Source of the DNA: Lytechinus variegatus
Taxonomy: Eukaryota > Echinodermata > Echinoidea > Temnopleuroida > Toxopneustidae
Direction of reading: 5' to 3'
Assembly (NCBI RefSeq): GCF_018143015.1
Contig: NC_054758.1
Location: 10,090,501 to 10,154,500, forward strand
Length of the DNA stretch: 64,000 nt
This document shows positions 10,504-64,000 of this stretch, piece after piece. Every line of letters starts with the position of its first letter. Position 1 is the first letter of the stretch. Under the pieces are notes generated by a model. That model ran no database searches, was not told the origin of the DNA, and was given only the letters and a program-made list of their open reading frames with translations. A program made the position numbers and the translations under genes.

Positions 10504-13071
10504 TTTAAAGGAGAAATATATTGATTATGAATGTGGTCTTATTATATATCAATGGAAAGGTAATGATGTGGGGAACATCAGTGGGTCATTCAAAAATACC
10601 GAAAATAATACAAAAAGGTGAAAATCGCCGATTAAAAAACGCTAAAATGCCCCTCCGAAATATGCCTCGCATCGGTCTGTGAATTGACCGGAATTTGATG
10701 ACGTCACTGTCTGTACGAGAGGCGTGATTGGCTCTCCAAAGTGAAGCTCCACTTGCATGCAAAACCTGTTGCGTGGGTACGTTTCCTCCACACTGTCAGT
10801 GAATACTTCTATCACGAATTGAAAGAAAACCCAGAATTTTATCTAGATTTGGATTTTCAAATTGATGATTTTAAAGATGAAGAGAATGATGATGAAGTGA
10901 ACAACACAGTGACGTAGTTGGAGGTAAATTGGGGGAACTATGCCGATGATGATGACGAAAAAATAACGATCACAAGTCATGTACATGCCGATTCGCTACC
11001 AACTCATGCAGCTGCTGCTACAAGTGGTAGCTACACCGCACGGGCCAAATTAAATCCATGAAAATGAATAACCACATCCAGACAGAGTCTATCATAAGAA
11101 GGAAAATAACTGTACTTACAAACAAGTGAATAATCCGAACCTGAAGGCTAATCCCGGGGGGGCCACTTACATTGACGAGTGGATACCATGCGCGACCAAA
11201 AAAACACGTAAAAAGGATGTCCTTTTCACGATAGGGCACGTTACGTACGTAACGTGATAAGGGTGTCAAAAACACAAAAATAATGAAAAAAGGGTATCTA
11301 TTTCGCTAGGAAAATTACGTGTTTAGGGTCGAATATGCGGGGATGATAAAACAAAATTAAAATATTTTATAAAGGATGTCCTTTTGCCCCTATACTACGT
11401 GTTTAGAGTCCTATTTGCGCGAGGTGTAGAAGGTGAGGTCGTACTAAACCAAATAAGGTAAAGCCGACGACCGAAGGACCCGTAACAATAAAACATTCCT
11501 GTACTTGTTTAGGGGTTCATTTCAGGGAATATTTGCTAAGAGTATCGTTTTGTTTCCAATACTTTTTAAGGGTAGTGTTTCACACGCCAATACTTGTTAA
11601 GGGGTGCATTTTCAGAATATGGAAATTACGTATTTAGGGTGCTTTTCGAGACCCCATGGTCGCGCATGGTATCCACTCGTGAATGGAAGTGGCCCCCCCC
11701 CCCGGGAGGCTAATCAACTCAACGAATAGCAGCAGAAGATATGCACTGACGATAAACTTCATGTGGCTGGAATAGATTGTCACTCGTTCTGTTAGATGTA
11801 ATTTTTAACTCATTAATTTGACAAAATTACGAAACTCGGGGAATTATTTATATATATAAAAATATAGTAACATCTCTTATTATTTTTGTATTACGATAAA
11901 ACTAGCTGTTTTGAAGGAAAACGTTGAGGTAAACTTAAATTACATCCCCAACATGCGTAGCTTGTATGTCATTGCAAACAAACCATCTCAAACATGCACG
12001 TATTCCTTCCTTGCCCGCCTTGCTGATTGAGAGCTGTGCAACACGTGCATAGATCTATTCTCTCAGTCTCAGCCAAGGCGAGCAAACAAAACGGCATCAT
12101 GTGTTGTTTTGATGGTTTGTTTACGATCACATAATGCTACGCATGATGGGATGATCTTTTACATCTAATTTTAATTTACCTCAACGTTTTCCTTCAAAAC
12201 AGGTTTTATTGTAATTCAACAAATGATAAGAGATGTTACTATATTTTTATATAGAGAAATAATTCCCCGAGTTTCGTAATTTTGTCAAATTAATGAGATA
12301 AAAGTTACATCTAACAGAACGAGTGACAATCTATCCCAGCCCCATGAAGTTTATCGTCAGTGCATATGCCATATCGTCTGCTACTATTCGTTGAGTTGAT
12401 TTGCCTTCAGGTTCGGATTATTCACTTGTTTGTAAGTACAGTTATATCATTTTCCTTCTTATGATAGACTCTGTCTGGATGTGGTTATTCATGTTCAGCA
12501 TGAATTCAATTTGGCCCGCGCGGTGTAGCTAGCACTTCCAGCAGCATGAATTGGTAGCGAATCGGCATGTACATGACATCACTTGTGATCGTGTTGCAAG
12601 TTAAATTTTCATCATCATCATCATGATCATCGGCGTAATTCCCCCAATTTACCTCCAACTACGTCACTGTGTTGTTCACTTCATCATCATTCTCTTCATC
12701 TCAAAATCATCAATTTGAAAATCCAAATCTAGATAAAATTCTGGGTTTTCTTTCATTTCGGGATCGAAGTATTCAGTGACAATGTGGAGAAAATGTACCC
12801 TTGCAACAGGTTTTGCATGCAAGTGGAGCTTCACGTGGGAGAGCCAATCACGCCTCTCGTACAGACAGTGACGTCATAAAAAATCCCCAATTTCGCGGAC
12901 GTAATTCTGCGTGTTTGAAGCATTCAGAGAGAGAACTTTAAACTATCAATTAAGTGACTTTTATCGGTCTCCATAATAAATGATGTACACCATCATGTTC
13001 TCCTTATTTTCTCCTTTATTGTGATATATGATTCTCCATTTTTACGATTTTCAATATATTTCTACTTTAAA
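10504..13071. mobile_element. Giant palindromic foldback element, ~1-kb arms
   Basis: The left arm (10504-11990, including a 554-bp insertion) and right arm (about 12103-13071) are inverted copies with clear base-by-base similarity. Examples are CACTTGCATGCAAAACCTGTTGC, AAACCCAGAATTTTATCTAG and CATCCAGACAGAGTC, each matched by its reverse complement. Both ends carry TTTAAA next to AATATATTGA/TCAATATATT. The centre is near 12045. There is no transposase. The type is uncertain: a non-autonomous foldback DNA transposon is the best guess. Confidence 0.75.
11153..11706. mobile_element. CCCGGGG-ended MITE nested in the palindrome, 8-bp TSD
   Basis: The inverted ends read CCCGGGGGGGCCACTT-type sequence followed by GAGTGGATACCATGCGCGACC, mirrored at the right end. 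It is flanked by AGGCTAAT at 11145-11152 and 11707-11714. The other palindrome arm preserves the unoccupied site (AGGCAAATC in reverse complement). The interior has degenerate CGTGTTTAGGGT units and a 20-bp perfect palindrome at 11237-11256. An 8-bp duplication fits hAT-like transposition. Other copies: 31311-31794 (truncated) and 32187-32749. Confidence 0.8.
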
Positions 13072-13203: not shown

Positions 13204-13334
13204 TAAACTCTGCACCAGGATCGGTAGACTAGCTTACCCGGGGTAATATAGGAGCGCCTTGTGCACCTAGCATGCTGGTCACGTGCGCTATACAAATCCA
13301 ATATTATTATTATTATTATTATTATTCATTTTTA
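13204..13334 (+). mobile_element. SINE-like insertion present only in copy A
   Basis: The insertion ends in GCGCTATACAAATCC followed by an ATT run, the same tail type as the SINEs at 31795-32040 and 45815-46105. The matching place in copy B (about 61260) lacks it, so it inserted after the duplication or was lost from B. Confidence 0.65.
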
Positions 13335-13412
13335 AGATTTCTTGCATTTATGACTTTCCATAATTTTAACATAGAGTTAGACTGTTGTCTGGGTTAAACC
13401 GTACTACGTAAT

Positions 13413-13564
13413 GGGAAGCGTTTCATGTAGTACGTTTTCGTCTAACAAGATGTCGTATCTGACAACTCTCCTTGATTTTGATTAGAAGCTCTGTTACTAT
13501 GGTAACTGTCGGATAAAACTTATCGGTCGCTTTATACGACAAGTCATTTCATGAAACGCTCCCC
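13413..13564. mobile_element. Foldback MITE with GCGTTTCATG ends
   Basis: The ends are inverted: GGGAAGCGTTTCATG against CATGAAACGCTCCCC. Inner inverted blocks around TGTCGGA/TGTCGTA follow. Same family as 675-928, and copied in the duplication at 61330-61480. Confidence 0.7.
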
Positions 13565-13605
13565 TAGAATACTGGCCAATGTCATGAATGTGTCTTACGG
13601 GGCAT

Positions 13606-13945
13606 CATTAGCGTACCTAAGGGCGGGGGGGGCAGACTGCCCCCCTGAAGAGTCACAACTCATGCGCAAGGGACGTATCCCTGCCCCCCCCCCCCCGACG
13701 AGTCACAACTGATCCCTGACGAGCTACAAGTGGCCCCTCTCTCTGAACTTGAAGACCCTTTTTTTTGCTTGTCAATTTTTAATCTGGTGCGAAATGTCCT
13801 TGATTTTTTTTGCTTGTCAAATTTTTTTCTGGTGACAAATAAATGTCGTTTACTTGTGGTTGAAGACCTTTTTTTATTTTGCTTGTCAAATTGTTTGGCG
13901 GACGAATTCCCCCCCCCCCCTTGGAAAATCCTAGGTACGCCACTG
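13606..13945. mobile_element. hAT-like MITE, near-perfect 8-bp TSD
   Basis: The inverted ends read CATTAGCGTACCTA at the left and TAGGTACGCCACTG at the right. Flanks CGGGGCAT and CGGGACAT (7 of 8 identical) form the target duplication. The interior repeats a GCTTGTCAATTTTT-type unit and has long C runs. The CAGTGGCGTA-type ends and 8-bp duplication fit the hAT superfamily. Confidence 0.75.
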
Positions 13946-13997
13946 CGGGACATTATGGTAATTGTTTATGACGAAAAGTCGCGAGTTGTATATATAT

Positions 13998-14287
13998 TCA
14001 CACACAAAGTGATGGAAACTTCCAGTAGCCATCTGACCCAAATCCAGTCCATATTCCTACGTAGTTGACCTGCTGAGGGTCGGGATCGATGTACTCCATT
14101 AGAGGTATATCGTTTCCATATCGATATAATATGATGTGGCCGTCTGCAAAGGAGATCCGATAGTGATCGTACGAAGGTTTGCCGGTCAGGGCCAGTGTGG
14201 CAGGATGGTTCTGGTATAATTCATCCCACTCATAGACCTCTCTAAGTCGACGGATTGCGCCTCCGGTGTTATCCCATCCCCCGATGG
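13998..14287 (-). CDS. FA (Methyltransf_FA) domain, C-terminal exon, copy A
   Basis: This exon encodes the second half of a Methyltransf_FA-type domain, named after crustacean farnesoic acid O-methyltransferase and found in many invertebrate extracellular multidomain proteins. Methyltransferase activity should not be assumed. Landmarks are IGGWDNTGGAIRR near the start, YRISFADGHIILYR in the middle and IDPDPQQVNYVGIWTGFG near the end, then WKFPSLCV and a TGA at 13998-14000. The acceptor (TTTTCAG, cut after 14288) splices in phase 1 to the donor at 15905, giving YEIAIGGW across the junction, as the family expects. The duplicate at 61927-62216 differs by only two residues (D/E and L/T), suggesting constraint or recency. 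It is the last exon of the minus-strand gene. Confidence 0.85.
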
Positions 14288-14879
14288 CTGAAAATGAATA
14301 TTGATAACTGCATTACATTATCAATAAAAATAATAACCAACATGAAAATTACACTTTCTTAAATCTCCATTCCACAGAGAGTAAGACATCTGTGAGACCA
14401 CTGTAAGCAAGGTAAGGCCATGATGAAACTTGCTTGATTTGTCAAAGATCTCCGAGGTTTTTAACGATTTCTGAGTGATCTTTCAGCAGTCTCTCGATGA
14501 ACTTTAAAAGTTATTATTAGTCTTTCCATGATCTTTCAACAGTCTCCCTTTTTTTTTGGGGGGGGGGGCGGAGATCTATAAAAGTCAGCCGTTCAGATTT
14601 CCTATCGGGTGACTACTTCACTCTTGAAGAGTTCTTTCAGATGACTTGCTTAGTCTTTCTGAGAAATTCATTGATCTTTCAAAGATTTCTGGTAGTACGT
14701 CGGATAATCTTTTAGTGATCTCTCAATTGTCTTATTGGTCTACTCGGTAATAGGGTCCTACGGTAATCTTGCTGGAAATGTCATTTTTGGTCTTTCGTAG
14801 GGTTTTCAGAGCCATTTCACAGAGGGAGCACGTTTCACTGATCTTGAAGACTGCCGAAAGACCTCGTCAATTTTCCGTC

Positions 14880-15275
14880 TTCTAGTGGTTTTCAATGGTC
14901 CCAAACCAATGGCCGAGGGTTCGAATCCCACCCGACGCCAATGTCCTTTGCAAAGCAAAAACTGTGGTGTTAACCGGTGTACATAGAGGACCACACCAGT
15001 TATTTTACACCGGTGTTAAATTGGTGGTGTTAGTTTTACACCTATAGGTGTTATTACAACACCTAGGTTGTTACATTTACACTCTTTGGTGTTATGTTCA
15101 ATCTCTAGGGTGTTATTTTAACACCTCAGGGTGTGGTCCTCTATTAACACCAATTGGTGTCAGTTTTAACACCACAGTTTTACAGTGTGGGAAGGCGCTC
15201 ACCCACGTTTGTCACTCTCTACCCAGGTGTTAAATGGGTACCCGGTAGGCTGCGAACGCCAATTTGATTACATGA
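14880..15275 (+). mobile_element. tRNA-derived SINE interrupted by a foldback repeat
   Basis: The head carries a clear B box (GGTTCGAATCCC at about 14918-14929). The body after the nested repeat (CTCTCTACCCAGGTGTTAAATGGGTACCCGGTAGG) matches the SINE fragment at 31795-32040. No ATT tail is visible, so the 3' end is truncated. Confidence 0.55.
14953..15188. mobile_element. Foldback repeat of ACACC/GGTGT units nested in a SINE
   Basis: The ends are inverted: AAAACTGTGGTGTTAA against TTAACACCACAGTTTT. An inner inverted pair AGAGGACCACAC/GTGTGGTCCTCT brackets about 150 bp. Roughly a dozen GGTGTTA/TAACACC motifs lie inside. It separates SINE sequence at about 14880-14952 from its continuation at 15189-15275. 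The copy in B is at 62880-63115. Confidence 0.65.
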
Positions 15276-15904
15276 TTTATTGACATAAGAATTATTGAAA
15301 TACATTATATTCATGAAGATTCATTGATACGTATACAAGTGAGTTTGACCATGTATGAATACCTAGCAGATCGAGATAGGCAAACGTCCCCCCCCCCGCT
15401 GCTTATTTTGAACACCAGTAGTATGTACTCTAAAATAGGAAGTGTCCCAGATCTTGTGCATCCTTTTCAAAATGGAAGCAAATATTTGTTGACTTTCCCT
15501 CATTTTATCTGCGGGGAGGGGCTTTTTATTCATGGGGAAAAATAGTCATATCCGTCAAACTCTAATTACTATACTCTTGGCTTTTCTGCTGGCCATTTTC
15601 TTGATTAACCAGTATGCTGTTTCATTTCCAAATCTAACGATGAAATAACAATGATTACAATAAGTTTCTATAATCAACTTAGAAAGGTTAGTGGTTGTAA
15701 TTGTTACATTACTACAAGATTCTCAAAGTTAATGGAAGGGAATGCAGTTTTTTTTAAATGGAAGAGAGAAAGAGAAAAATAATGTAGACCATAAGGAGAT
15801 ACGAGATAAATACAAAAAAGATGCAAGTAGAATTTATTACACAACGAATGATATTGAAAAGATAATGGCAATGGAAACAGAAGAAGTATGTATGCTTCAC
15901 GCAC

Positions 15905-16015
15905 CTATTTCGTACATATATCCAACGTCTTCTTCGTTGCTCCTGGAGAGTCCAATATGTGCGTCATTGTTAGCGCTGACCTCGAAGTCAAATGAAGTCA
16001 TGCCAGGGACGACTG
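15905..16015 (-). CDS. FA (Methyltransf_FA) domain, N-terminal exon, copy A
   Basis: This exon encodes the first half of the FA domain: GMTSFDFEV, then ANNDAHIGLS, then YMYEI up to a GAAATAG|GTGCGT donor at 15905. Its phase-1 end joins the exon at 14287. Two starts are possible. An acceptor AG at 16016-16017 gives a phase-1 start matching the EGF exon (18284-18382). Alternatively, the open frame continues to about 16080, with CAG acceptors near 16069-16078 in phase 2. The shorter form is preferred because its phase fits and because copy B has a 1-base difference just upstream (about 63981-63984) that would break the longer form. Confidence 0.75.
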
Positions 16016-16511
16016 CTAATCCGGAAAGGTATATTGTCTCGTGGTGCCAACGTTCACCGTGTGAAGAACTGGGCATGCTGTCATATTAATAAGATGTATA
16101 TTGCTTAATGTTTCCATCTGATTAATTCGTTTAATGTTTGTATTTCAATAGGGTACAGCCGTACATACAAACTCCTTTTACGTACGGAATGAATAACTGG
16201 CAATGTTCAAGTAATCTATGAAACACAATCCACACATATTGTTTTTGTACATTCCAGGAGCAAATTTATTACAAATAACTAGATGCCAGCGTCAGTTCGG
16301 TACAATTATTACTTTAGTTATACTTGAAAATTTTCCAGTAAATTCAGCAGAAAGAATGAGTAGAAATGTATGACTATACGTATAATTTCCACCCAGCTAC
16401 CTATGGAGTCATATTAACTAGATTTTATTCTAAAGATTGTACACTTAAAACTATTGTCAATCTAATAAAGCTATCAGTCGATCACCAAGTGTCATCTCTT
16501 GTGACTTATAT

Positions 16512-31310: not shown

Positions 31311-31794
31311 CAAACACGTAATTTCCATATTCTGAAAATGCACCACTTAACAAGTATTGGCGTGTGAAACCCTACCCTTAAGTATTGAAAACAAAACGAT
31401 AGTCTTGGCAAATATTCCCTGAAATTAACCCCTAAACAAGTACAGGAATGTTATTGTTACGGGTCCTTCGGTCGTCGGCTTTACCTTATTTGGTTTAGTA
31501 CGACCCCACCTTCTACACCTTGCGCAAATCGGACTCTAAACACGAAGTGTTGGGGCAAAAAGGACATCCTTTATAAAACATTTTAATTTTGTTTTATCAT
31601 CCCCGCAAATTCGACCCTAAACACGTAATTTTCCTAGCGAAATAGATACATTTTTTCCATTATTTTTATGTTTTTGACACCCTTAACACGTTACGTACGT
31701 AACGTGCCCTATCGTGAAAAAGACATCTTTTTACGTGTTTTTTTTTTTTTGGTCGCGCATGGTATCCACTCGTCAATGTAAGTGGCCCCCGGGC
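31311..31794. mobile_element. CCCGGGG-ended MITE, truncated copy
   Basis: It matches 32187-32749 closely from the AACACGTAATTTCCATATTC block onward, through the 20-bp palindrome (31687-31706), to GAGTGG-type right end sequence and CCCCGGG. About 80 bp of its left end are missing, at the join with the M5 MITE. Confidence 0.75.
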
Positions 31795-32186: not shown

Positions 32187-32749
32187 CCCCGGGGCCCGGG
32201 GGCCAGTTCCATTCACGAGTGGATACCATCCGCGACCATTGGGTCTCGAAAAGCACCCTAAACACGTAATTTCCATATTCTGAAAATGCACCCCTTAACA
32301 AGTACTGACGTGTGAAACCCTACTCTTTACAAGTATTGGAAACAAAACGATACTATTGGCAAATATTCCCCGAAATGAACCCCTAAACAAGTATAGGAAT
32401 GTTTTATTGTTACGGGTCCTTCGGTCGTCGGCTTTACCTTATTTGGTTTAGTTCGACCCCACCTTCTACACCTCGCGCAAATCGGACTCTAAACACGTAG
32501 TGTTTGGGCAAAAAGGACATCCTTTATAAAACATTTTATTTTTGTTTCATCATCCCCGCAAAATCGACCCTAAACACGTAATTTTCCTAGTGAAATAGAT
32601 ACCCTTTTTTCATTATTTTTGTGTTTTTGACACCCTTATCACGTTACGTACGTAACGTGCCCTATCGTGAAAAAGACATCCTTTTTACGTGTTTTTTTTG
32701 GTCGCGCATGGTATCCACTCGTCAATGTAAGTGGCCCCCCCCCCCCGGG
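32187..32749. mobile_element. CCCGGGG-ended MITE, complete, 8-bp TSD
   Basis: The flanks GTCAGTCC (32179-32186 and 32750-32757) are identical. The inverted ends contain GAGTGGATACCAT..CGCGACC. The 20-bp palindrome is at 32640-32659. The high similarity to 31311-31794, about 400 bp away in the same orientation, suggests recent activity or local duplication. Confidence 0.82.
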
Positions 32750-32904
32750 GTCAGTCCATTCATTGCCTGTCCCCGCCGAGGCGGGTAGTTGGATATTGGA
32801 AGCCTTGCTGGAGATCCTCCTCCAACTTGCGCCGCCATCGACCCATCCCGACCCCCACCCATTGGACTTGCTTACCGATCTTGACTAAATACTGCCCTCA
32901 ACTT

Positions 32905-33720
32905 CGTAGTCGATTTGACATTTTCCGAACCTAGAAATGTTCTTTCCGATGAAGTTTTTTTCTTGATTCGTGTTCCTATGGGGTCCTAGAACAAATTCAG
33001 CTTGGTTGCCAAAAGTTGCCGTTTGGGCAATTTTGCTAATTTGCATAAATCCAAAATGGCCGCCAGATGCCATCTTGAAAACCTAACTTTTGAACCCCTG
33101 TCCACAAAATGATGAGTAATGACTCGTTTTAGGGGTTTAGAGATGTGTAGAACTGATTTCTGTAATCATTTTTGCAATATAAGGTCATCTTTAGGTCAAA
33201 TCCAAGATGGCCGCCATATGCAATCTTGAAAAATTGACTTGTGTTCCCCTTGCCCCAGAATGACGAGTAATACCTCTATTTAGGGGTTTTGGGGTGTGCA
33301 GAATCCATTTCTGCTTTCTATTTTGCAATATAATGTCATCTTCAGGTCAAATCCAAGATGGCCGCCATATGACGCCATCTTGAAATATCAATTGTTGAAC
33401 CCTTTGCCCCAGAATCATGAATAATAACTCTATTCATGAGTCATTAGGTATGTTGATTCACTTCATGTAGTTATTTTGCACAAAAGATAATCTTCAGATC
33501 AAATCCAAGATGGCCGCCAACCGCCATCTTGAAAAATTACTGTCTGAGGCTTATACGTGTTAGAACTAATATAAAGGGATTTCAGTAAGAATACTCATTT
33601 CTTTTATTAATTCTCAAGTTCATTTCAACATTAATTGCTCAACTTAGAATAAATCCTCTTTAGGTTTGGGCTATCCATTTCGAGTGTATTTTTTTAAGGT
33701 CCATTCATACCTTTGTACTA
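32905..33720 (-). mobile_element. DIRS-order fossil: inverted arm
   Basis: This is an inverted copy of the arm at 35010-36112, starting from the same CGATTTGACA/TGTCAAATCG edge. It consists of about four degenerate units of 150-153 bp, each with a CCAAGATGGCCGCCA block (33051 diverged, 33202, 33352, 33505). Between the two arms lies an unrelated LINE fragment. Part of a broken, old element. Confidence 0.65.
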
Positions 33721-33819
33721 AAAGGGGCTTTTAGGGTCTTATTTCAATTTGAAAGAGTTTTATCAATATTATTTTTCTAAATCAATGTGTCCAATGATTG
33801 GTAGACATCAGTTCGCCTT

Positions 33820-34870
33820 AAAAGACGATGGTGTAGCGCTAGGCTTTACATTTTCGAGAGTGACTATAGAGCTCCACTCTAGAGTGGCAGTCTCTAGAGC
33901 AAATTTTTACAGATGAAGGAGGATGGCGCTGAGACACGTTTATATAGAGATGCTGCCCTAGCCTTCCTCCTAGGCCTTTGGTCTGCCAATTTAGCATTCC
34001 GATTATTTTCTGACGTCTTGACCCCTGTACTTAGTAGCTCTCCATAGAATGGATGGCGACTATCATCTACACCTTCATAAGTGTTAGTGTCTATGCCGGC
34101 AAGTTTTATGTCATATTTGCATGTGTCTTTAAAACGGAGGTGTGATCTATCGATGGGGTGAGACCAATCACACAGCTTACCTTACCTTGGCGAATCCAAG
34201 AAGGGATTCGCCAAGGTTTCATGGGGCAAACATGCCCCAACCACCTGAGGTGCCTTTGACTAAGGAGCGAGAATAAGCTTTTGGTGCTAGCACGTACGCT
34301 GAAGGGCCTCTGTATTTTTCACTTTGTCCTGCCATTTAACGTGCATGATACGTCCGAGGCAGCTGACATGGAAGGTGTTTAGCCACTTTTCTTGGTCGGC
34401 GTACGTTTTCCAGGAATTACTTCCGTGCAGGAGCTTGGCCATGACTGTGACAGATTTTACAATCCTGATGCTTATATGCTTGTCCTGTGAAAGGGGACAA
34501 GAGACATATAGTCGGTCCAAGGTAGGTGAGGAGTCCACCATAACCAGACGAGTGTGTGCTGTTGATATACATATCTGGAGGACAGTCGGTGTCTTGAGTC
34601 TATCAGGATTTCTGACTGTCTCAAAGTCTGATGGATGGTCCAAACCCCTTACATGCACAAGACAGGCAGCTGTTATGTATGACTAGGTCTTGTACTCCCA
34701 CTTCTTGAGAGGCAGGGGCGACATCGTTTCCGTAAAACATTTCACGAATGAGAACAATCCTGACCGTGGAACAGTCTTGGGGAGCCTATCTTCTGCAGGA
34801 GGCTAAAGAGTGCACTCCTGCTGACCAAGTCAATGGCTCTTGTCAGGAGGAAAAGTCCAATAATAATTAT
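33820..34870 (-). mobile_element. LINE C-terminal fragment
   Basis: On the minus strand the segment around 34300-34450 encodes LLHGSNSW, FHVSCLGRIMHVKWQDK and NTEALQR, the typical C-terminal tail of many LINE reverse-transcriptase proteins (consensus LxxFHxRCLRxILxIxWxDxVxNxxVL). The downstream part is degraded by frame changes. It lies between the two arms of the DIRS-order fossil, so it probably inserted there. Confidence 0.65.
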
Positions 34871-35009
34871 AAAGGAAGTTAATAATTAAATCAATTTTTT
34901 GAAAAAAAAATACGGAGAAATCACTTTTTAATTCAAATAATACTTTAAAGTCATTTCACTGGAAAAGTATGGTTGCACAGAAATAAAAAAAGGGATCAAA
35001 ACTCCCGAA

Positions 35010-36112
35010 ATCATAGCCCAAACCTTGAATGGTTTAATTCTAAAGTAAGCGGTTAATGACGAAATCTATCAACCATCTGACCATCTTAGACATGACTTGA
35101 CCTCGAACTAAAAATGGAGTGATTAAAAGAAATGAATCATTCTCACTGAAATCCCCTTACATGAGCTCCAATACATAACAACAACCTTATTAGGGACAGC
35201 ACTTCTTCAAGGTTCAATAGTCTCGGAAGTAGTTTTTTTTTATTTCTTAATATGGCGTTTAGTGGTCATGTTGGATTATTTTGACCTGGAGATGATCCTA
35301 CATTGCAAAATTATGAACAGAAATTGAATAAACATACCAAATAACTCACGAAAAGAGGGATATTATTCATGATTCTGGGACAAAAACTTGAGAATTAATA
35401 AAAGAAATGAGTATCTTACTGAAATCCCTTTACATTAGTTCTAACACGTATAAGCCTCAGACAGTAATTTTTCAAGATGGCGGTTGGCGGCCATCTTGGA
35501 TTTTATCTGAAGATTATCCTTTGTGCAAAATAACTACATGAATTGAATCAACATACCTAATGACTCATGAATAGAGTTGTTATGCATGATTCTGGGGCAA
35601 AGGGTTCAAAAATTGATATTTCAAGATGGCGTCATATGGCGGCCATCTTGGATTTGACCTGGAGATGACATTATATTGCAAAATAGAAAGCAGAAATGGA
35701 TTCTGCACACCCCAAAACCCCTAAATAGAGGTATTACTCGTCATTCTGGGGCAAGGGGAACAAAAGTCAATTTTCAAGATTGCATATGGCGGCCATCTTG
35801 GATTTGACCTGAAGATGACCTTATATTGCAAAAATGATTACAGAAATCAGTTCTACACATCTCTAAACCCCTAAAACGAGTCATTACTCATCATTTTGTG
35901 GACAGGGGTTCAAAAGTTAGGTTTTCAAGATGGCATCTGGCGGCCATTTTGGATTTATGCAAATTAGCAAAATTCCCCAAACGGCAACTTTTGGCAACCA
36001 AGCTGAATTTGTTCTAGGACCCCTTAGGAACACGAATCAAGAAAAAAACTTCATCGGAAAGAACATTTCTAGGTTGGTGTATTGAGCCTATGAGACTTTC
36101 AAATCGACTATC
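35010..36112 (+). mobile_element. DIRS-order fossil: arm upstream of gag-like region
   Basis: Tandem units end in GGCGGCCATCTTGG-type blocks at about 35499, 35651, 35801 and 35952, spaced 150-152 bp, plus a more diverged unit near 35274 and a partial duplication of about 273 bp at 35142-35414. It immediately precedes the gag-like region, as a terminal repeat or promoter arm would. A related arm in the same orientation lies at 44305-44685. Confidence 0.65.
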
Positions 36113-36213
36113 GGGCCGAAAACAGTACCAGTAGCGAGGCTGAGCGAGAGAAGTCAATCTTCCGCCTGAACTCGTCCCTTAGTACTTCGGACGAAGTCAG
36201 TCCTGCGATCAAG

Positions 36214-37110
36214 ATGGACGCTCCGTATAATTCCTGCTTTCGGGGCCTAGATAAACTACACTCTCGGCTTAAACCGATCAGTAAAGAAGTCTCGAAGGAT
36301 TATCGGTTTACCGCTCAAGATTTTTTTTTGTGCACACCTTCGGTCGCGGACGTTCCTTTCCGTGTCGGGGATGCGGGAGCGAGGAAGGGTAGATCTGGCC
36401 GTAACCCTCTCCGCGGCGCTGGTTACCGCTCAGCCGACTATGAGCTAGCAGCGCTGGACGCGGCCGCCCGGAGCGGTATGAGACTCGCGATGTACCAGGG
36501 GTTTCTGTTAACCACTCTTAGTGAGGCTGAGCGGCTTGGAGTCTCTACCAATGACAAGAACTTATTGTTAGAGTCGCTCACAAAAATCGCTAATCTCCAG
36601 TATGAGCAAGCAGCAAGATCAACACTATTATGCACGAGGGCAAGGAGGGCTAAAGTTGTAGATGCTCTCAAGATCGAGAAAGGGGCAGCCAGACTTCTCA
36701 TTAAGCTTCCGTTGCGAAGGTAAGGACTTGTTTCATGGACACTTTCAAGAAGTATTGGACGAGTCTATTTCAGCCAGCACAGCTGACAAGACATTGTATA
36801 AGCTCTCCACGATTAGACCTAGTAGTAGCCCGCAGGGCCCTGGACCGGCCCAGGGCCAGGCCCAAAGACCCCCTTATGCTAGCTCTAGCTCCAGACCCCA
36901 GCCCCAGACCTTCAATGAACATTAGGGGTCATCCCTCTCCTTCCCTCGCTCTGGTGGAGACGCCAGGAATGAAAGGGGCCGAGGGGAAAGTCATACGAAA
37001 CCTCGGGGTGGGGGACGGGGCTGCCAGGCCCACTTTCAGCGCACCGAATTCAGGGCCCCCACTCATAACCGGGACTTTTGACAATCAAACACTAGTCCTT
37101 CCCCACCTTC
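36214..37110 (+). mobile_element. DIRS-order fossil: gag-like ORF1 remnant
   Basis: An open frame beginning MDAPYNSCFRGLDKL includes an alanine-rich helical segment (YELAALDAAARSGMRLA) and RARRAKVVDAL, followed by a Pro/Ser/Arg/Gly-rich region, the pattern of DIRS-type ORF1 (gag-like) proteins. GC content is higher than in the surroundings. The element is a broken fossil, and the reverse transcriptase and RNase H parts are not seen. Family assignment rests on context with the tyrosine recombinase remnant at 43910-44320. Confidence 0.55.
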
Positions 37111-38170: not shown

Positions 38171-39173
38171 TTACAGAGTGGGGACATTTTTTAAGTGTTG
38201 TTTCAATACTCTTTTAAATTGTGTAAAAGTCTTAACCGATTTAACATGATTAGGGAGGGAATTCCAAAAAAGTATGCCATTATAATAAAATGTGTTGCCA
38301 ATTTGACCTTTTCTTATAGTTACAACAAAGTTAAACAGACTATTTCTTGTTTCATGCCCGTGAATATTAGATGACCGTGTAAAGTTTTTTTGAGATGTAA
38401 TGATATTCGTTTGAATAGAAAATTTTATGAACATGGTGAAGTATAAGTTGTTGCGACCTCAAGTCTATGCGAAGAAGGCCAGCTTTTTCGATTTCATTCT
38501 TCCCAACATGTGTTCTTGGGTGTAAGCAAGTAATAAATCTAACAATCTTATTTTGAATAATTCTAAACTTTTTTTGATCAACCTTTCCAAGACTGCAGTA
38601 CCATGCTGCATTAGCATAATCAAATAAACACTGTATTAATGAAAAGCTTAAGATGCGTCTGGATTTCGTATTCATGCAATTTTGATACCGGTATAGAAAT
38701 TTCAAGCGAGCATTAGCTTTTTTGACAATAGAGTCAACCATAGATGTACATGAGAGATCACTATTTAATATCAGGCCTAGATACTTCACGGAATTCTGTC
38801 TCTTAATTAATTGATTGTTATAGTATATATTGAAATCATCTGTATGCTTAGACCTAGCCCGCGAACAGAACAAAATACTTTCGGTCTTACCAACATGTAA
38901 GCTAAGCTTATTATCTGTCATCCATTTAATACAATTTGATAATTCTAAGCTAAGTTTTTCACCGATCAGCTTAGGACTTGTATCAGAATAGAGTAAAACA
39001 CTGTCGTCTGCATATAAAAGTAATTTACTTTCATTAACACAAATACACATATCATTGATATAGCACATAAAAAGAATGGGACCTAATATGCTCCCCTGAG
39101 GAACTCCACACTTTATAGGCATAGAATATGAGAGTACATTTTGCATGGATACCACTTGGCGGCGATTTGTCAA
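38171..39173 (-). CDS. LINE reverse transcriptase, C-terminal part
   Basis: It continues with CGVPQGSILGPILF, the catalytic LLLYADDSVLL, WMTDNKLSLHVGKTE and VKYLGLILNSDL. Near 38400 the frame changes and the C-terminal domain continues as NIHGHETRNS and FWNSLPNHV..FKRVLKQHL, ending at 38171. Typical of the CR1/Jockey group. Confidence 0.9.
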
Positions 39174-39185
39174 GTAAGACCTAAA

Positions 39186-40067
39186 CTAATTTAAACATGC
39201 TAAATTCAAACCCATCACTTCTAATTTCTTTAAGAGTATTTCATGAATAACCGTATCGAATGCTTTTTGTAAGTCAAGAAGAACCATTCCAACATAACGG
39301 CCTTCGGAAATTTCATTCCTAAAAAAATCCAACAAGTGTATTAAACATGTTTCAGTAGAATAACCATTCCTAAAACCAGACTGAAATTCATAAATGATTT
39401 TGTATTCTTTAAAGTATTTCTCAATTTGAGAATACACGCATTTCTCCAAAATTTTCGACACTATGCTTAACACACTAATAGGTCTATAATTCCCAACATG
39501 AGTTTTGTCTTTCTTTTTGTCTAATGGTGTGACTTTAACGATTTTCATTTCGTCAGGGAAGGTACAAGTTGAAATAGATAGGTTAATAATGTAAGTTAAA
39601 GGAATAAAGACGTTTTTTGCACCATCCTTTAAAAATCTAGCAGGAACCAAGTCAAGTCCGGTACTTTTTGATATTTTCAACTTGGATAATTCATTTAATA
39701 CAAACTTTTCTGTGACAGGAGAAAAATTAAAACAGCCTTTTTGTATACCTTTATTGTCGTAAAGTTTTTTTAAATTAGGACTGTCGGCCCCAAACTCACT
39801 TCTGTCCGTAATGGGGAGCTCACAAGCTAATTTATCGGCCACTGTTGTGAAATAATTGTTAAATTCGTTGGCTATCTTTAGATTATCATGACATAGTTCC
39901 CCTTTAATATTAATAACACTTTTCTGAATATTTTTTTGTTTGTTTTTTAAACCTAACTCTTTGAGATTTTTCCATAATTTCCTAGAATCATGTTTATTGT
40001 CTTCAATTTGATTTTGGAAAAATTCGTCTTTAGCTTTCCTCACTTTCCTTTGTACCACATTTCGCAA
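39186..40067 (-). CDS. LINE reverse transcriptase, N-terminal part
   Basis: RT core motifs: KSTGLDLVPARFLK, VTPLDKKKDKTHVGNYRPISVLSIVSKILEK, FQSGFRNGYST and VLLDLQKAFDTV with the first catalytic Asp. An in-frame stop near 40094 separates it from the endonuclease side, and a stop at 39186 separates it from the rest of the RT. Confidence 0.9.
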   Translation of the reverse strand: MRNVVQRKVRKAKDEFFQNQIEDNKHDSRKLWKNLKELGLKNKQKNIQKSVINIKGELCHDNLKIANEFNNYFTTVADKLACELPITDRSEFGADSPNLKKLYDNKGIQKGCFNFSPVTEKFVLNELSKLKISKSTGLDLVPARFLKDGAKNVFIPLTYIINLSISTCTFPDEMKIVKVTPLDKKKDKTHVGNYRPISVLSIVSKILEKCVYSQIEKYFKEYKIIYEFQSGFRNGYSTETCLIHLLDFFRNEISEGRYVGMVLLDLQKAFDTVIHEILLKKLEVMGLNLACLN

Positions 40068-40281
40068 TAGTTTAAATTTCCTTTCGAGTTTTTAATTACC
40101 AAAATCCTTTTTCATTTTCCTGAAAGCTATATTTCGTTGTCTTATCAAACCAATAATTTCACTGGTCATCCATCTTTCTGTTCTTTGCTTAATTCTTACT
40201 TGTTTTAAAGGTGCACACTTATCAACTACTGACATGAAAATACTTTTGAAGTGTGACCAAGCAATATTCACTTCATTACAT

Positions 40282-41592
40282 TCAAATATAATAAATATAA
40301 TAATAAAACGGAATTAAAATCATTTTCACAAATGATTTTTTCATACATCGAATGCTTATAGTTCTATGCTGCCCAAATACAGGCCTGATAAGTTTCCTTG
40401 AACAATACGTGAAAAAGTGATCACTTAAGCCAATTTCAAAGACACCACTTTGACAAATATTTTCTTCTTTACTACAAATTACATGGTCTATCAATGAAGA
40501 AGTGGTAGGTGTAGTTCGGGTGGGTTTTGTTATAAGTTTGCTCAAACCATATAGATTCAAAATATTCTTGAATCTTTTGGTCAGTGCTGATTGTTGTAAT
40601 AGACAAATATTCATGTCCCCTAAAAGAATAACCTCATCATCTTTTGTTAATATGTCCAATATATCATGGAGAGAATCAATAAAGTGATTGTCCCTGGGGG
40701 GTCTGTAGACTACACCTAAAGTAATAGGCTTTGTATGTGGTAATAGAATGTCGATCCACAATGATTCAATACCATCAGGTGTAAGATCTTCTCTTAGATT
40801 AAATGCGATATCATTTTTAATATAAAGGCAGACCCCACCACCATGGTCGCCTGCACGATCTCGTCTTAATATAGAATAACCATCGATATAAATTTCTTCA
40901 TTATTTATGGACGAATTCAACCATGTTTCTGTAATTGCAATTACTGAAATTCTACTTTCATAGAGAAGGACGCGTAGTTCAGGAATTTTATGTAAAATGG
41001 ATCTGATATTTAAATGAACGAAATGCAACCCTTTTGCTTTAAATATATCATTAAATGATTTGTATAAAACAGCCTTATCAATTCCAGTAGGTGTGTTAAA
41101 TTCAGGGATAGGAGGTGCATTAACTGTTGAGATGGGTTGAACATCAATCGAGGATTGTGTAAAAATTGATTCACAAAATGGCGGCAATGAACAGGTTAAA
41201 CATATCCTATTCTCATTTGGGTTTTGATACAGCCTAGTATATTCATTTAAAGAGATCTCGAGACATTTAGTGTGATACCACTTTTGACAATTGGTACACA
41301 ACAGTCCATTTTGGTTATTTTTGACGGGTTTCTCGCAATGACCACAAGGGAATTTATAGTTCGGACCGGGATTTGTTTCAACGTCGCCAGACAATAAAAT
41401 ACGAAAAAAGACTTGATTATGTTCCTGATATATTGCTGTTTGAAAGGTGGCCACGGAATTATGATAATATAAAATCCGAGAGCGAAAGTATTTTACGCGC
41501 TTAAACGATTTGATAGTAACATATTCAAAACCAGATGAGACATGGAAAGAACATAAAAATGAAATTAACAAATAATAGAAAACAAAATTCAT
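40282..41592 (-). CDS. LINE ORF: signal-like N-terminus, 2A, PHD, endonuclease
   Basis: The best start is the Met at 41592 (MNFVFYYLLISFLCSF); an upstream Met at 41664 would add only residues from a CA microsatellite. From it: a hydrophobic signal-like segment, then about residue 70 GDVETNPGP, then a C4HC3 PHD finger (CGHC, CTNC, WYHTKC, CLTC), then an APE endonuclease with LNIRSI, ITETWLN, GGGVCLYI, LGDMN and the catalytic LSDH near the end. The frame is lost near 40320, before the RT. A 2A motif would split the nascent chain and release the N-terminal leader. Confidence 0.88.
   Translation of the reverse strand: MNFVFYYLLISFLCSFHVSSGFEYVTIKSFKRVKYFRSRILYYHNSVATFQTAIYQEHNQVFFRILLSGDVETNPGPNYKFPCGHCEKPVKNNQNGLLCTNCQKWYHTKCLEISLNEYTRLYQNPNENRICLTCSLPPFCESIFTQSSIDVQPISTVNAPPIPEFNTPTGIDKAVLYKSFNDIFKAKGLHFVHLNIRSILHKIPELRVLLYESRISVIAITETWLNSSINNEEIYIDGYSILRRDRAGDHGGGVCLYIKNDIAFNLREDLTPDGIESLWIDILLPHTKPITLGVVYRPPRDNHFIDSLHDILDILTKDDEVILLGDMNICLLQQSALTKRFKNILNLYGLSKLITKPTRTTPTTSSLIDHVICSKEENICQSGVFEIGLSDHFFTYCSRKLIRPVFGQHRTISIRCMKKSFVKMILIPFYYYIYYI
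41362..41388 (-). other. 2A-like ribosome-skipping motif in the LINE
   Basis: The minus strand encodes GDVETNPGP, matching the D-x-E-x-N-P-G-P consensus exactly, preceded by a hydrophobic ILLS. 2A-like sequences are known in N-terminal positions of APE-type non-LTR retrotransposons, including sea urchin elements. Confidence 0.9.
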
Positions 41593-41607
41593 GACATAAA
41601 TATGAGC

Positions 41608-41611
<4 letters not shown>

Positions 41612-41642
<31 letters not shown>
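41612..41642. repeat. (CA)n microsatellite
   Basis: A CA run at the 5' edge of the LINE; translated on the minus strand it gives a spurious VCVCVC extension. Confidence 0.95.
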
Positions 41643-41646
<4 letters not shown>

Positions 41647-41824
41647 ACAACCCTCCCCACTCACACAAACGAGTTTTACATAGTCTAGGCCTACATCTTA
41701 TTCATTGACTCAGCAAAAGTAAATAATGTCCTGGAGGGTCCATGAAGCACTTGTATAGTATACGCCTGCATCTTCCATGTCCAAAAGTGAGAATTGTAGC
41801 TGGTATAAATGCATTTTTTTTGTG

Positions 41825-44320: not shown

Positions 44321-44685
44321 CATCATTCTTGGGCAAGAGGTTCAAATTTGATTTTTTTCAAGATGGCATATCCGGATAGCATCTGACAGCCACTTTGGAT
44401 TTGACCTAAAGATAACCTTATATTGCGAAAATGAGAATAAACCCTTAAAAAGAATTATTGCTCATCATTCCGGGCAAGCTAGTGTTAGGTTTTCAAGATG
44501 GCATCTGGCAACCAATTTTGGATTCATACAAATTTGCAAAATTGCCCAAAGTTACCATTCGGGCAACCAAGCTGAATTTGGTCTTACACCCATAGGAACA
44601 CGAATCAAGAAAGAAAAATAAATCATCGGAAAGAACACTTCTAGGCTGGTGCACTGACCTTATGCGACTGTCAAATCGACTATTT
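44305..44685 (+). mobile_element. DIRS-order fossil: right arm remnant
   Basis: It has the same orientation and order as 35010-36112: CAAGATGGC blocks, AACACGAATCAAGAAA, ATCGGAAAGAACA and the GTCAAATCGACTAT edge. It is more diverged and shorter. Direct orientation on both sides of the coding remnants resembles Ngaro/PAT-type direct repeats more than simple inverted repeats. Confidence 0.65.
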
Positions 44686-58084: not shown

Positions 58085-58648
58085 TTTTCATGGTTTTGTA
58101 AAAGCACGGTGTCCCGACATGGTGACCATCTTGTAATGTCAGTACCCCCAAGGGTGTAGGCTTGGGGGGTACGTGCACCCTCCTGCTAAGGCAGAGGAGT
58201 TCCAACACTGGCATGCAAAACAAAAATTGTACCCCTTTTACTTTCAACAGCTGATTTTCTAAAATTTAGTTCCACCTCCCCAATATATGCACCTCCATAC
58301 CACTTAAGTTCCACCTCCCCAAGGACGTGCACCTCCTCATGCTCAAACCAGCCTACGCCCTTGTTACCCCGCGCGTGGTGCGTCCAGGTGCTGTCAATGC
58401 ATAGGTTATTGAATTATTCATTTCCAGGAAAGTGAGGTAATAGTTCTCTTCCTGCCATGTCTTTTCAATTGCAATAATTTCAGATATCAATCATATTAAT
58501 ATCGGCAATTAATGCAAAGAGCAAAAATGATAATGAATAATATATGAAAATATCCATTAGCTTTCGAAGTACATGTCTTTTGTTCGGTGAACGCATGCAT
58601 AATTGTTCGGAGAGTAAATATTGATCCCTCCACTATATATTAGGCGTA
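58085..58648 (+). repeat. Direct repeat, copy 1 (564 bp)
   Basis: Identical in length to 59859-60422, with only about seven visible differences. It includes the TCATGGTTTTGTAAAAGCACG segment and the tail of repeat X. Confidence 0.9.
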
Positions 58649-58908
58649 GAGGCAGCTAATCTTAACCGATTTAAATTACTCATCAAAAAATTTCTTTTGA
58701 ATTCTTACTGATTCAATCAAACATTGTGAACTTCATACTTATCCACAGTAGTATTGATTATTTTAAAGTAAATATTTTTTTTTGTATATAGTGTATATAC
58801 ATTTGTGTTACAGTGTTTATATTTATATAACTTTATAGAATTTTGCTGATTATTTTACTCTATTTGTATCATATTACCCTTGTATAATGTTTTGATAGGG
58901 GGTCTACA
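58649..58908. repeat. Inverted repeat arm 1 (~260 bp)
   Basis: A near-identical reverse complement of 59451-59709 (for example ATTCTTACTGATTCAATC against GATTGAATCAGTAAGAAT). It starts exactly where the 564-bp direct repeat ends. Confidence 0.92.
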
Positions 58909-58954
58909 CTTTGTAAAAAAACAATTGGCCAATAAAACGCAATTTCTTCTTGGA

Positions 58955-59270: not shown

Positions 59271-59709
59271 TTTGTTTTATTTATTTTTACCTATTTATTG
59301 ATATATTCATATTCCACAATCATCAAAGAACATTTCGTAATAAATCATGTTTACAATGAAAAAAAAAGGAATAACATATGCAGGATTGAAACGTAGCAAT
59401 GAAATGAAAAAAAAAGTGGAGGGGCCTACTAAGAAGCAGGGCTTGTAAAATGTAGACCCCCTATCAAAACATTATACAAGGGTAATATGATACAAATAGA
59501 GTAAAATAATCAGCAAAATCTATAAAGTTATATAAATATAAACACTGTAACACAAATGTATATACACTATATACAAAAAAATATATTTACTTTAAAATAA
59601 TCAATACTACTGTGGATAAGTATGAAGTTCACAATGTTTGATTGAATCAGTAAGAATTCAAAAGAAATTTTTTGATGAGTAATTTAAATCGGTTAAGATT
59701 AGCTGCCTC
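59271..59709. repeat. Insertion in repeat X with inverted arm 2
   Basis: It interrupts repeat X relative to the 9.5-kb copy. Its right part, 59451-59709, is inverted arm 2. It is AT-rich and may be a truncated LINE 3' end read on the minus strand, but no motif proves this. Confidence 0.55.
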
Positions 59710-60422
59710 TTTCAATACAAACAAAGCCATCAGGAGACATAATTTATATGCATATCTTTACTTGTGTAGGTAATTAAAAAGAAAATAATTGCATTTGGAA
59801 ATAAACCGTTAGCTAAATTAGCTATGTCGTCCGTCAAAACAGCTATCAAAGATACCCCTTTTCATGGTTTTGTAAAAGCACGGTGTCCCGACATGGTGAC
59901 CATCTTGCAATGTCTGTACCCCCAAGGGTGTAGGCTTGGGGGGTACGTGCACCCTCCTGCTAAGGCAGAGGAGTTCCAACACTGGCATGCAAAACAAAAA
60001 TTGTACCCCTTTTACTTTCAACAGCTGATTTTCTAAAATTTAGTTCCACCTCCCCAATATATGCACCACCATACCACTTAAGTTCCACCTCCCCAAGGAC
60101 GTGCACCTCCTCATGCTCAAACCAGCCTACGCCCTTGTTACCCCGCGCGTGGTGCGTCCAGGTGCTGTCAATGCATAGGTTATTGAATTATTCATTTCCA
60201 GGAAAGTGAAGTAATAGTTCTCTTCCTGCCATGTCTTTTCAATTGCAATAATTTCAGATATCAATCATATTAATATTGGCAATTAATGCAAAGAGCAAAA
60301 ATGATAATGAATAATATATGAAAATATCCATTAGCTTTCGAAGTACATGTCTTTTGTTCGGTGAACGCATGCATAATTGTTCGGAGAGTAAATATTGATC
60401 CCTACACTATATATTAGGCGTA
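59710..60422 (+). repeat. Repeat X, right part, with direct repeat copy 2
   Basis: 59715-59858 continues repeat X (CTTTACTTGTGTAGGTAATTA). 59859-60422 is the 564-bp direct repeat, including about 135 bp absent from the 9.5-kb copy. Confidence 0.8.
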
Positions 60423-61191: not shown

Positions 61192-61521
61192 AATTGAATA
61201 GTTTTCTTCACAATAGATGCTTTGAAAATGAACACTATAGTGGCAGTATACAATTTTAATAAGATATCGTGCATTTTTTGGCTTTCCATAATTTTTAACA
61301 TAGAGTTGTCTGGGTTAAACCGTACTACCGGGGAGCGGTTCATCTAGTACGTTTTGTCTGACAAGATGTCATATCTGACAACTCTCCTTGATTTTGATTA
61401 GAAGTTCTGTTACTGTGGTAACTGTCGGATAAAACTTTTCGGTCGCTTTATACGACAAGTCATTTCATGAAACGCTCTCCTAGAATACTGGCCAATGTCA
61501 TGAATGTGTCTTACGGGGCAT

Positions 61522-61874
61522 CATTAGCGTACCTAAGGGCGGGGGGGGCAGACTGCCCCCCTGAAGAGTCACAACTCACGCGCAAGGGACGTATCCCTGC
61601 CCCCCCCCTGACGAGTCACAACTGATCCCTGACGAGCTACAAGTGGCCCCTCTCTCTGAACTTGAAGACCCTTTTTTTTTGCTTGTCAATTTTTAATCTG
61701 GTGCGAAATGTCCTTTATTTTTTTATTATTTTTTTTTGCTTGTCAAATTTTTTTCTGGTGACAAATAAATGTCGTTTACTTGTGGTTGAAGACTTTTTTT
61801 TATTTTGCTTGTCAAATTGTTTGGCGGACGAATTCCCCCCCCCCCCCCTTTGGAAAATCCTAGGTACGCCACTG
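61522..61874. mobile_element. hAT-like MITE, duplicate of 13606-13945
   Basis: Same ends and same flanking CGGGGCAT/CGGGACAT pair, so it was carried by the segmental duplication rather than inserted independently. Homopolymer runs differ in length. Confidence 0.75.
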
Positions 61875-61926
61875 CGGGACATTATGGTAATTGTTTATGA
61901 CGAAAAGTCGCGAGTTGTATATATAT

Positions 61927-62216
61927 TCACACACAAAGTGATGGAAACTTCCAGTAGCCATCTGACCCAAATCCAGTCCATATTCCTACATAGTTGACCT
62001 GCTGAGGGTCGGGATCGATGTACTCCATTAGAGGTATATCGTTTCCATATCGATATAATATGATGTGGCCGTCTGCAAAGGAGATCCGATAGTGATCGTA
62101 CGAAGGTTTGCCGGTCAGGGCAAGTGTGGCAGGATGGTTCTGGTATGTTTCATCCCACTCATAGACTTCTCGAAGTCGACGGATTGCGCCTCCGGTGTTT
62201 TCCCACCCCCCGATGG
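61927..62216 (-). CDS. FA (Methyltransf_FA) domain, C-terminal exon, copy B
   Basis: The same 290-bp exon as 13998-14287, with the same acceptor and the same stop. The protein differs only as IGGWENT (E for D) and WDETYQN (T for L); other base changes are silent. The open frame is fully preserved, so this copy may be functional as part of a second gene lying beyond the window, or be very young. Confidence 0.82.
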
Positions 62217-63863
62217 CTGAAAATGAATATTGATAACTGCATTAGATTATCAATAAAAATAATAACAAACATGAAAATTACACTTTCTTAAAACTGCATT
62301 CCACAGAGAGTAAGACATCTGTGAGACCACTGTAAGCAAGGTAAGGCCATGATGAAACTTGCTTGATTTGTCAAAGATCTCCGAGGTTTTTAACGATTTC
62401 TGAGTGATCTTTCAGCAGTCTCTCGATGAACTTTAAAAATTATTATTAGTCTTTCAACAGTCTCCCTTTTTTTTGGGGGGGGGGGGGAGATCTATGAAAG
62501 TCAGTCGTTCAGATGTCCTATCGGGTGTCTACTTCACTCTTGAAGAGTTCTTTCAGATGACTTGCTTAGTCTTTCTGAGGAATTCATTGATCTTTCAAAG
62601 ATTTCTGGTAGAACGTCAGATAAACTTTTAGTGATCTCTCAATTGTCTTTTTGGTCTACTCGGTAATAGGGTCCTACGGTAATCTTGCTGGAAATGTCAT
62701 TTTTGCTCTTTCTTGGGGTTTTCAGAGCCATTTCACAGAGACAGCACATTTCACTGACCTTGAAGATTGCTGAAAGACCTCGTCAATTTTCCGTCTTCTA
62801 GTGGTTTTCAAGGGTCCCAAACCAATGGTCGAGGGTTCGAATCCCACCCGACGCCAATGTCCTTTGCAAAGCAAAAATTGTGGTGTTAACCGGTGTACAT
62901 AGAGGACCACACCAGTTATTTTACACCGGTGTTAAATTGGTGGTGTTAGTTTTACACCTATAAGTGTTATTACAACACCTAGGTTGTTACATTTACACTC
63001 TTTGGTGTTATGTTCAATCTCTAGGGTGTTATTTTAACACCTCAGGGTGTGGTCCTCTATTAACACCAATTGGTGTCAGTTTTAACACCACAGTTTTACA
63101 GTGTGGGAAGGCGCTCACCCACGTTTGTCACTCTCTACCCAGGTGTTAAATGGGTACCCGGTAGGCTGCGAACGCCAATTTGATTAGATTTGCACGCCGC
63201 GTGCACCGATAAAATTTTCAATGAACATTACATGGTTTATTCACATAAGAATTATTGAAATACATTATATTCATGAAGATTCATTGATACGTATACAAGT
63301 GAGTTTGACCATATATGACTACCTAGCAGATCGAGATAAGCAAACGTCCCCCCCCCGCTGCTTATTTTGAACACCATTAGTATGTACTCTTAAATAGGAA
63401 GTGTCCCAGATCTTGTGCATCCTTTTCAAAATGGAAGCAAGTATTTGTTGACTTTCCCTCATTTTATCTGCGGGGAGGGGCTTTTTATTCATGGGGAAAA
63501 ATAGTCATATCCGTCAAACTCTAATTACTATACTCTTGGCTTTTCTGCTGGCCATTTACTTGATTAACCAGTATGCTGTCTCATTTCCAAATCTAACGAT
63601 GAAATAACGATGATTACAATAAGTTTCTATAATCAACTTATAAAGGTTAGTGGCTGTAATTGTTACATTACTACAAGATTCTCCAAGTTAATGGAAGGGG
63701 ATGCAGTCTTTGAAAAATGGAAGAGAGAAAGAGAAAGATAATGTAGACCATAAGGAGATACGACATAAATACAAAAAAGATGCAAGTGTAATTTATAGCA
63801 CAACGGATGATATTGAAAAGATAATGGCAATGGAAACAGAAGAAGTATTTATGCTTCACGCAC

Positions 63864-63974
63864 CAATTTCGTACATATATCCAACGTCTTCTTCGTTGCT
63901 CCTGGAGAGTCCGATATGGGCGTCATTGTTAGCGCTGACCTCGAAGTCAAATGAAGTCATGCCAGGGACGACTG
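63864..63974 (-). CDS. FA (Methyltransf_FA) domain, N-terminal exon, copy B
   Basis: It corresponds to 15905-16015. It ends at the same donor (GAAATTG|GTGCGT) and keeps an open frame through MTSFDFEV, ANNDAHIGLS and YEI. Just upstream it has CCGGG where copy A has CCGG, which breaks the longer possible exon but not this short form. The rest of the gene, if any, lies beyond 64000. Confidence 0.7.
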
Positions 63975-64000
63975 CTAATCCGGGAAAGGTATATTGTCTC

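Follow-up and report, generated by a model that had tools for sequence, protein, structure and literature searches.

A recently mobile foldback DNA transposon in Lytechinus variegatus, with arms built from tandem units of facing YY1-type motifs

In the genome of the sea urchin Lytechinus variegatus, two inverted arrays of degenerate repeats of about 151 bp lie next to a gag-like open reading frame, and their units carry paired motifs resembling binding sites of the zinc-finger protein YY1. To which element do these arrays belong, and what may they do? A preliminary description assigned them to a fossil DIRS-type retroelement, as arms that would serve the gag-like region downstream as a promoter or in packaging. 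We analyzed a stretch of 64,000 nucleotides around the locus (hereafter the window; contig 19 of the assembly) and searched the genome (869.6 Mb, 33 contigs) for copies of its parts. The arrays are almost certainly the arms of a foldback DNA transposon, whose limits and surroundings are as follows (positions are those of the window).

32904..32906, no strand: target-site duplication TCG, left copy; a single TCG in 5 of 5 uninterrupted copies read
32907..36110, plus strand: non-autonomous foldback DNA transposon, 3204 bp (~3.2 kb); the span common to the copies, with 3-bp duplications
32907..32918, plus strand: 12-bp terminal inverted repeat, left (TAGTCGATTTGA)
36099..36110, minus strand: 12-bp terminal inverted repeat, right (TCAAATCGACTA on the plus strand)
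36111..36113, no strand: target-site duplication TCG, right copy; a single TCG in 5 of 5 uninterrupted copies read
36111..36723, plus strand: flanking DIRS-like copy, outside the foldback element, with the gag-like open frame 36094-36723 (identity by eye)

Evidence for this comes from copies of the neighbouring element. The right flank (36111-36560) is part of a repeated element that we take by eye to be DIRS-like: besides the window it is found at 39 places (40 rows), 80-91% identical, among the 40 matches scored out of 117 first-look candidates. All five copies that we read across the site are uninterrupted, and in each the end of the left flank meets the start of the right flank at one TCG; farther left, they match the left flank only partly (82 bases at 79-85%). 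The window has a TCG on either side of the foldback element instead of the single one, hence the element was inserted with a 3-bp duplication. Furthermore, since these five DIRS-like copies lack the foldback element at this site, the gag-like frame belongs to the neighbour and is no gene of the foldback transposon. The array thus does not lie upstream of a gag-like region of its own element: that region is part of the repeated element that received the insertion.

These uninterrupted sites refute the idea that the arrays are DIRS arms serving for promotion or packaging. It draws on the adjacency to the DIRS-like gag frame only, and against it stand separate termini, a duplicated TCG, the absence of the feature at the same place in the five DIRS-like copies read, and the unshared flanks of the foldback copies. 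The two elements also differ in divergence: the DIRS-like flank matches are 80-91% identical, whereas the best 40 matches of the left foldback arm reach 99-100% identity over 600 bases. DIRS elements usually lack a target-site duplication. The proposed role as promoter or packaging arm for the gag-like region falls together with the DIRS reading.

The element has discrete ends and a target duplication, long inverted arms (693 and 691 of its 3204 bp) and internal repetition within the arms, all of which are foldback traits. Its termini read TAG...CTA, beginning TAGTCG, and it runs from 32907 to 36110, slightly inside the limits first given (32905-36112). We looked for target duplications in 30 sequences, the window and the fetched loci L009-L037; both ends are present in 26, the others being L017, L028, L033 and L037. 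Exact 3-bp duplications flank 23 of these 26, while a length of 4 bp would fit one. The 23 duplicated triplets are biased to A and T (ATA occurs six times, TTA four). A 3-bp duplication combined with TAG...CTA ends is not by itself diagnostic of a superfamily. In the P superfamily, which includes the foldback-like Galileo, duplications are about 8 bp long.

Judged by copy identity, the element is not a fossil. Of 20 best-matching loci fetched, 18 align with the whole span of the window copy (32907 to about 36110), in one to three pieces, and reach both ends at about 98% identity; the exceptions are L017, without a right end, and L028, which is rearranged. Alignments of fetched copies stop within ten bases of the element ends. 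Exact ends number 193 (right) and 186 (left) genome-wide, counts that leave out decayed copies, and reversed control patterns give none. All copies that we read are about 87-99% identical to the window copy, and the older ones (L029-L037, about 87-97%) share its layout where they are complete. From these identities, the element appears to have been active over a long period that extends to recent times. In one locus (L043, contig 3, 48760600-48764599), two foldback copies lie tail to tail within an 8.3-kb span flanked by left-type ends. The window itself holds an older right-end fragment of the family at 44350-44684; 39 other matches scored for this fragment have identities of 74-81% across most of the query.

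The arms and the centre of the window copy comprise the following features.

32928..33620, plus strand: left long arm (693 bp)
33047..33197, plus strand: left unit 1; altered half-site CAAAATGGC at 33052-33060, GCCATCTTG at 33069-33077
33198..33348, plus strand: left unit 2; CAAGATGGC at 33203-33211, partner changed to GCAATCTTG
33349..33500, plus strand: left unit 3; half-sites 33354-33362 and 33374-33382
33501..33620, plus strand: left unit 4, cut at the arm end; half-sites 33506-33514 and 33523-33531
34287..34682, minus strand: 131-codon open frame in the centre, judged by eye only
35181..35325, minus strand: decayed fifth unit, just inside the right arm; CGCCATATT at 35249-35257
35385..36075, minus strand: right long arm (691 bp), 98-99% complementary to the left arm
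35385..35503, minus strand: right unit 4, cut at the arm end; half-sites 35473-35481 and 35490-35498
35504..35655, minus strand: right unit 3; half-sites 35622-35630 and 35642-35650
35656..35805, minus strand: right unit 2; exact half-site 35792-35800
35806..35956, minus strand: right unit 1; exact half-site 35926-35934

That both arms are arrays of units, as first described, is borne out: there are four units per arm, 150-152 bp apart (Tandem Repeats Finder, TRF, periods 151 and 150), starting at 33047, 33198, 33349 and 33501 on the left and, on the reverse complement, at 35956, 35805, 35655 and 35503 on the right. Complementarity between the arms is 98-99% in two pieces, or 97.98% over 693 bp. 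We compared arms in 22 copies with both arms present, chosen as best matches of a left-arm or right-end query, which biases the identities upward; L033, in which no arm passed, and L015, L017, L027, L028, L031, L035 and L037, with one arm only, were dropped. In 17 young copies, identity is 0.9815 between the arms of one copy and 0.9811 between left and right arms of different copies (left-left 0.9936, right-right 0.9892). Because the within-copy value equals the left-right value between copies, no ongoing correction of one arm by the other is seen in these 17. The corresponding values in old copies are 0.958, 0.951, 0.964 and 0.948, from five copies, too few to judge. Separately, a constrained terminal domain is not supported: mean variability is lower in the outer 119 bp, yet these rank only 89 of 574 sliding windows in old copies and 147 of 574 in young ones.

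The motif at issue is the nonamer GCCATCTTG. It occurs 14 times in the window, compared with 0.38 expected from shuffles; 12 of these sites are in the foldback element, up to six per arm, and two in the old relative near 44.4 kb. Within a unit, the two half-sites face each other with nonamer starts 17-20 bp apart. The view that each unit has two facing motif copies holds in that the facing block is far above chance, but four of the 16 half-sites in the eight clear units are altered and 12 are exact. The alterations are alike in both arms: unit 1 has one half-site changed (CAAAATGGC) and unit 2 the other (GCAATCTTG). The 11-mer initially proposed, AAGATGGCGGC, never occurs exactly in the window; ten sites of the element differ from it by a single letter, for example AAGATGGCCGC, AAGATGGCGTC and AAGATGGCGGT. 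As a caution for the YY1 reading, a stricter motif, CGCCATNTT, fits only five sites of the element, which lie in units 3 and 4 of each arm and in the decayed unit. The window as a whole has seven such sites where 1.7 are expected, and one of 100 shuffles reaches seven. Genome-wide, we counted 771 facing pairs of the form CAAGATGGCCGCCA-N2..12-GCCATCTTG and none of the reversed control pattern; 79 of 100 pairs listed, all on contig 1, lie within 4 kb of a listed exact foldback end. Among 51 arms of dispersed copies, the mean is 5.6 exact nonamers (range 3-7), whereas a Markov null based on the left arm in the window gives 0.008.

Are these sites better conserved than the unit around them? A binding role would be unlikely if they were not. 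When units are compared, they are: identity across the four left units is 0.944 in each 9-column half-site, 0.561 in the spacer and 0.561 in the rest of the unit. This comparison rests on four distinct units, and the two arms are not independent. The half-sites are the best-conserved 9-column stretches across units: 17 of 143 windows of nine columns in the left arm and 16 of 143 in the right attain the half-site level, all of them overlapping a half-site. When the 30-bp block is scored as a whole, 14 of 122 windows are equally high, and these too all overlap it. Adding the decayed fifth unit gives 0.878 and 0.867 for the half-sites against 0.491 and 0.515 elsewhere, and units 2-4 alone give 1.000 and 0.926 against 0.545 and 0.596, in which case two of 24 windows as high as half-site 2 fall outside the half-sites. 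The 12 columns ahead of half-site 1 are also raised (0.75), past the limits of the motif. Among the 51 arms of dispersed copies, motif heterogeneity is 0.024 versus 0.032 at other unit sites, a difference that is not significant (1080 of 5000 random placements are as low). With CpG sites excluded, 405 of 5000 are as low, the lowest result of eight tests run. Such an absence of a significant motif excess is expected if dead copies decay without selection, yet it lends no support.

The nonamer has a precedent in another transposon. In the lancelet ProtoRAG, the conserved block TR5 of both ends is described as GCCATCTTG and as bound by YY1, which regulates the transposon genes, guides the RAG-like proteins to the correct ends and keeps transposition in check; TR5 is also reported to matter for the precision of cleavage (PMC7481187, PMC8289069). 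The likeness lies in this nonamer within terminal repeats, 12 times exact in the foldback element. The differences are equally clear: TR5 sits within a short terminal repeat, whereas the outermost exact nonamer of the foldback element is more than 140 bp from its end, and ProtoRAG has CAC-starting termini and 5-bp duplications (PMC7204232), in contrast to TAG...CTA and 3 bp here. A second comparison is the mouse L1 Tf promoter, described as a series of tandem monomers each with a YY1 site, for which bridging by YY1 multimers has been suggested (PMC11602158). The foldback units are similarly tandem and carry YY1-type pairs. However, the L1 array is a retrotransposon promoter upstream of an ORF, while the foldback arms are inverted at both ends of an element with no recognizable gene and with no array upstream of an open frame of its own (the longest central frames have 131 and 127 codons). 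In mouse L1 assays the base before GCCAT matters (PMC11602158); a point against YY1 as the docking protein is that the outer half-sites of the foldback arms carry GGCCAT. The host has a YY1-like locus: a query of YY1 fingers matches it in two pieces, at 98% and 91% identity, and the next match is at 51%. Taken together, a reading of the arm units as YY1-type sites is plausible and has been strengthened. Among the matches listed in our search of titles and abstract openings, in which subscription journals are thinly covered, no YY1-type array in a foldback element appears.

In its general build the element is of an ordinary kind, a non-autonomous foldback transposon; what is unusual is the make-up of its arms from tandem facing YY1-type pairs. 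Sea-urchin foldbacks are named TU. They are cited in work on the related elements Tetris and Galileo (PMC4079207, PMC3688188). Both Drosophila elements, as described there, share with ours long inverted arms, internal tandem repeats and a variable non-coding centre; those of Tetris have 220-bp tandem units (PMC4079207). The window element differs from them in its 3-bp duplications and its 151-bp units with facing GCCATCTTG pairs. Galileo carries several binding sites in its long repeats for its own transposase, which binds through a THAP domain. The authors of that study propose that having multiple sites confers specificity and lets the ends form a higher-order complex (PMC3688188).

No recognizable transposase gene is present in the window copy. 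The 131-codon central frame, which by eye we take to resemble a non-LTR reverse transcriptase remnant, has one Pfam match far under the cut-off (E 0.21) and no match among solved structures; of all the central frames scanned, the family search took in this one only. The copies with long centres that we scanned contain no open frame suggestive of a transposase, a scan that a spliced or broken gene would escape: the longest frame is of 149 codons in L012 (5000-7600) and 133 in the two tail-to-tail elements of L043, L028 (4600-10000) has frames of 140 and 127 codons like the central frames of the window, L037 (1000-6100) has none of 120 codons or more, and a 1.5-kb piece of the 8.1-kb span L044 has frames of up to 67 codons. 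Searching the genome for related ends yielded no partner: TAGTCGATTTGA followed by A, G or T occurs 71 times against 55 for the reversed control, near chance. The pattern TAGTCGATTTGACA followed by A or C occurs 32 times against three. We read 100 bases at six of these sites: five belong to a single satellite repeat, and the sixth is a variant left end from the foldback family. A short satellite repeat that includes the 12-mer of the transposon end is found at L045-L048 and L050.

How might such an element move? It was mobile until recently, as copy identity indicates, and we propose, at roughly even odds, that it is mobilized in trans and that its four-unit arms are platforms for pairing the ends. 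A trans-acting transposase would cut at the 12-bp ends with a 3-bp stagger, as structure suggests. The arms would offer multiple docking sites, each unit contributing one facing pair of GCCATCTTG, and proteins bound along both arms may multimerize and so bring the ends together; the motifs might also serve expression of the element. That the units are protein docking sites at all is probable. The docking protein could be either host YY1, as at the ProtoRAG ends, or the element's transposase, as with the THAP domain of Galileo. Granted docking, the choice between them is close to an even one, with a slight preference for YY1 on the ground that a proven target of this protein has exactly the nonamer seen here.

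Several alternatives bear on this proposal. As the main rival, the units might bind only the transposase of the element, the likeness to YY1 sites being a coincidence: Galileo, with its multiple THAP-domain sites (PMC3688188), and the tandem arm units of Tetris (PMC4079207) offer models, and the conserved stretch does extend upstream of the nonamer, but a letter-for-letter match to a proven YY1 site and the failure of both the scanned centres and the end-pattern search to reveal a transposase make this rather doubtful. We hold it somewhat less likely still that the units are a by-product of tandem duplication without any role, their motif conserved by chance among so few. Only four distinct units exist, dispersed copies show no significant motif excess, and the 17 young copies show no ongoing arm correction (0.9815 versus 0.9811), all of which would fit. 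However, conservation is confined to two separate stretches that fall on the two half-sites, the spacer between them having diverged as much as the remainder, and 771 exact facing pairs persist genome-wide, although many are possibly in recent copies. Finally, facing pairs could act as DNA hairpins or cruciforms. As single-stranded DNA, units 3 and 4 fold better than shuffles (z -4.46 and -5.02; 0 and 1 of 200 as good), but units 1 and 2 are unremarkable (z -1.81 and -1.43; 10 and 16 of 200 as good) and any facing repeat of a site would pair, so that this explanation seems very improbable.

A bolder extension of the docking model, which we put forward as a speculation with the chances against it, is that multi-site YY1 docking arms arose independently on a non-RAG foldback transposon with the same nonamer as in ProtoRAG. 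Host YY1 multimers would then pair the arms and steer synapsis or silencing, and YY1 would be a recurrent host partner of animal DNA transposons. If YY1 does bind the arms, two unrelated types of DNA transposon, ProtoRAG and the foldback family, would share with L1 retrotransposons a single host factor and an almost identical site for it. Whether YY1 is a common host partner of animal mobile DNA would then become a testable general question. The 771 exact facing pairs could furthermore serve as regulatory or looping sites.

The window contains other repeats. A segment of about 2.7 kb is present twice in direct orientation, at 13328-16040 and at 61253-64000, where the window end truncates it; the two copies lie about 48 kb from each other and are 95-96% identical. 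Repeats of about 485-557 bp, which share 93-94% identity, lie both beside and away from the DIRS-like copy (31312-31790, 32260-32739 and, inverted, 11156-11709). Young repeats at 58085-58912 and 59447-60422 comprise a direct pair of 564 bp and, inside it, an inverted pair of 265 bp, each with 98.9% identity. On the minus strand at 38367-41697, long open frames look by eye like a fragmented non-LTR retrotransposon with endonuclease and reverse transcriptase.
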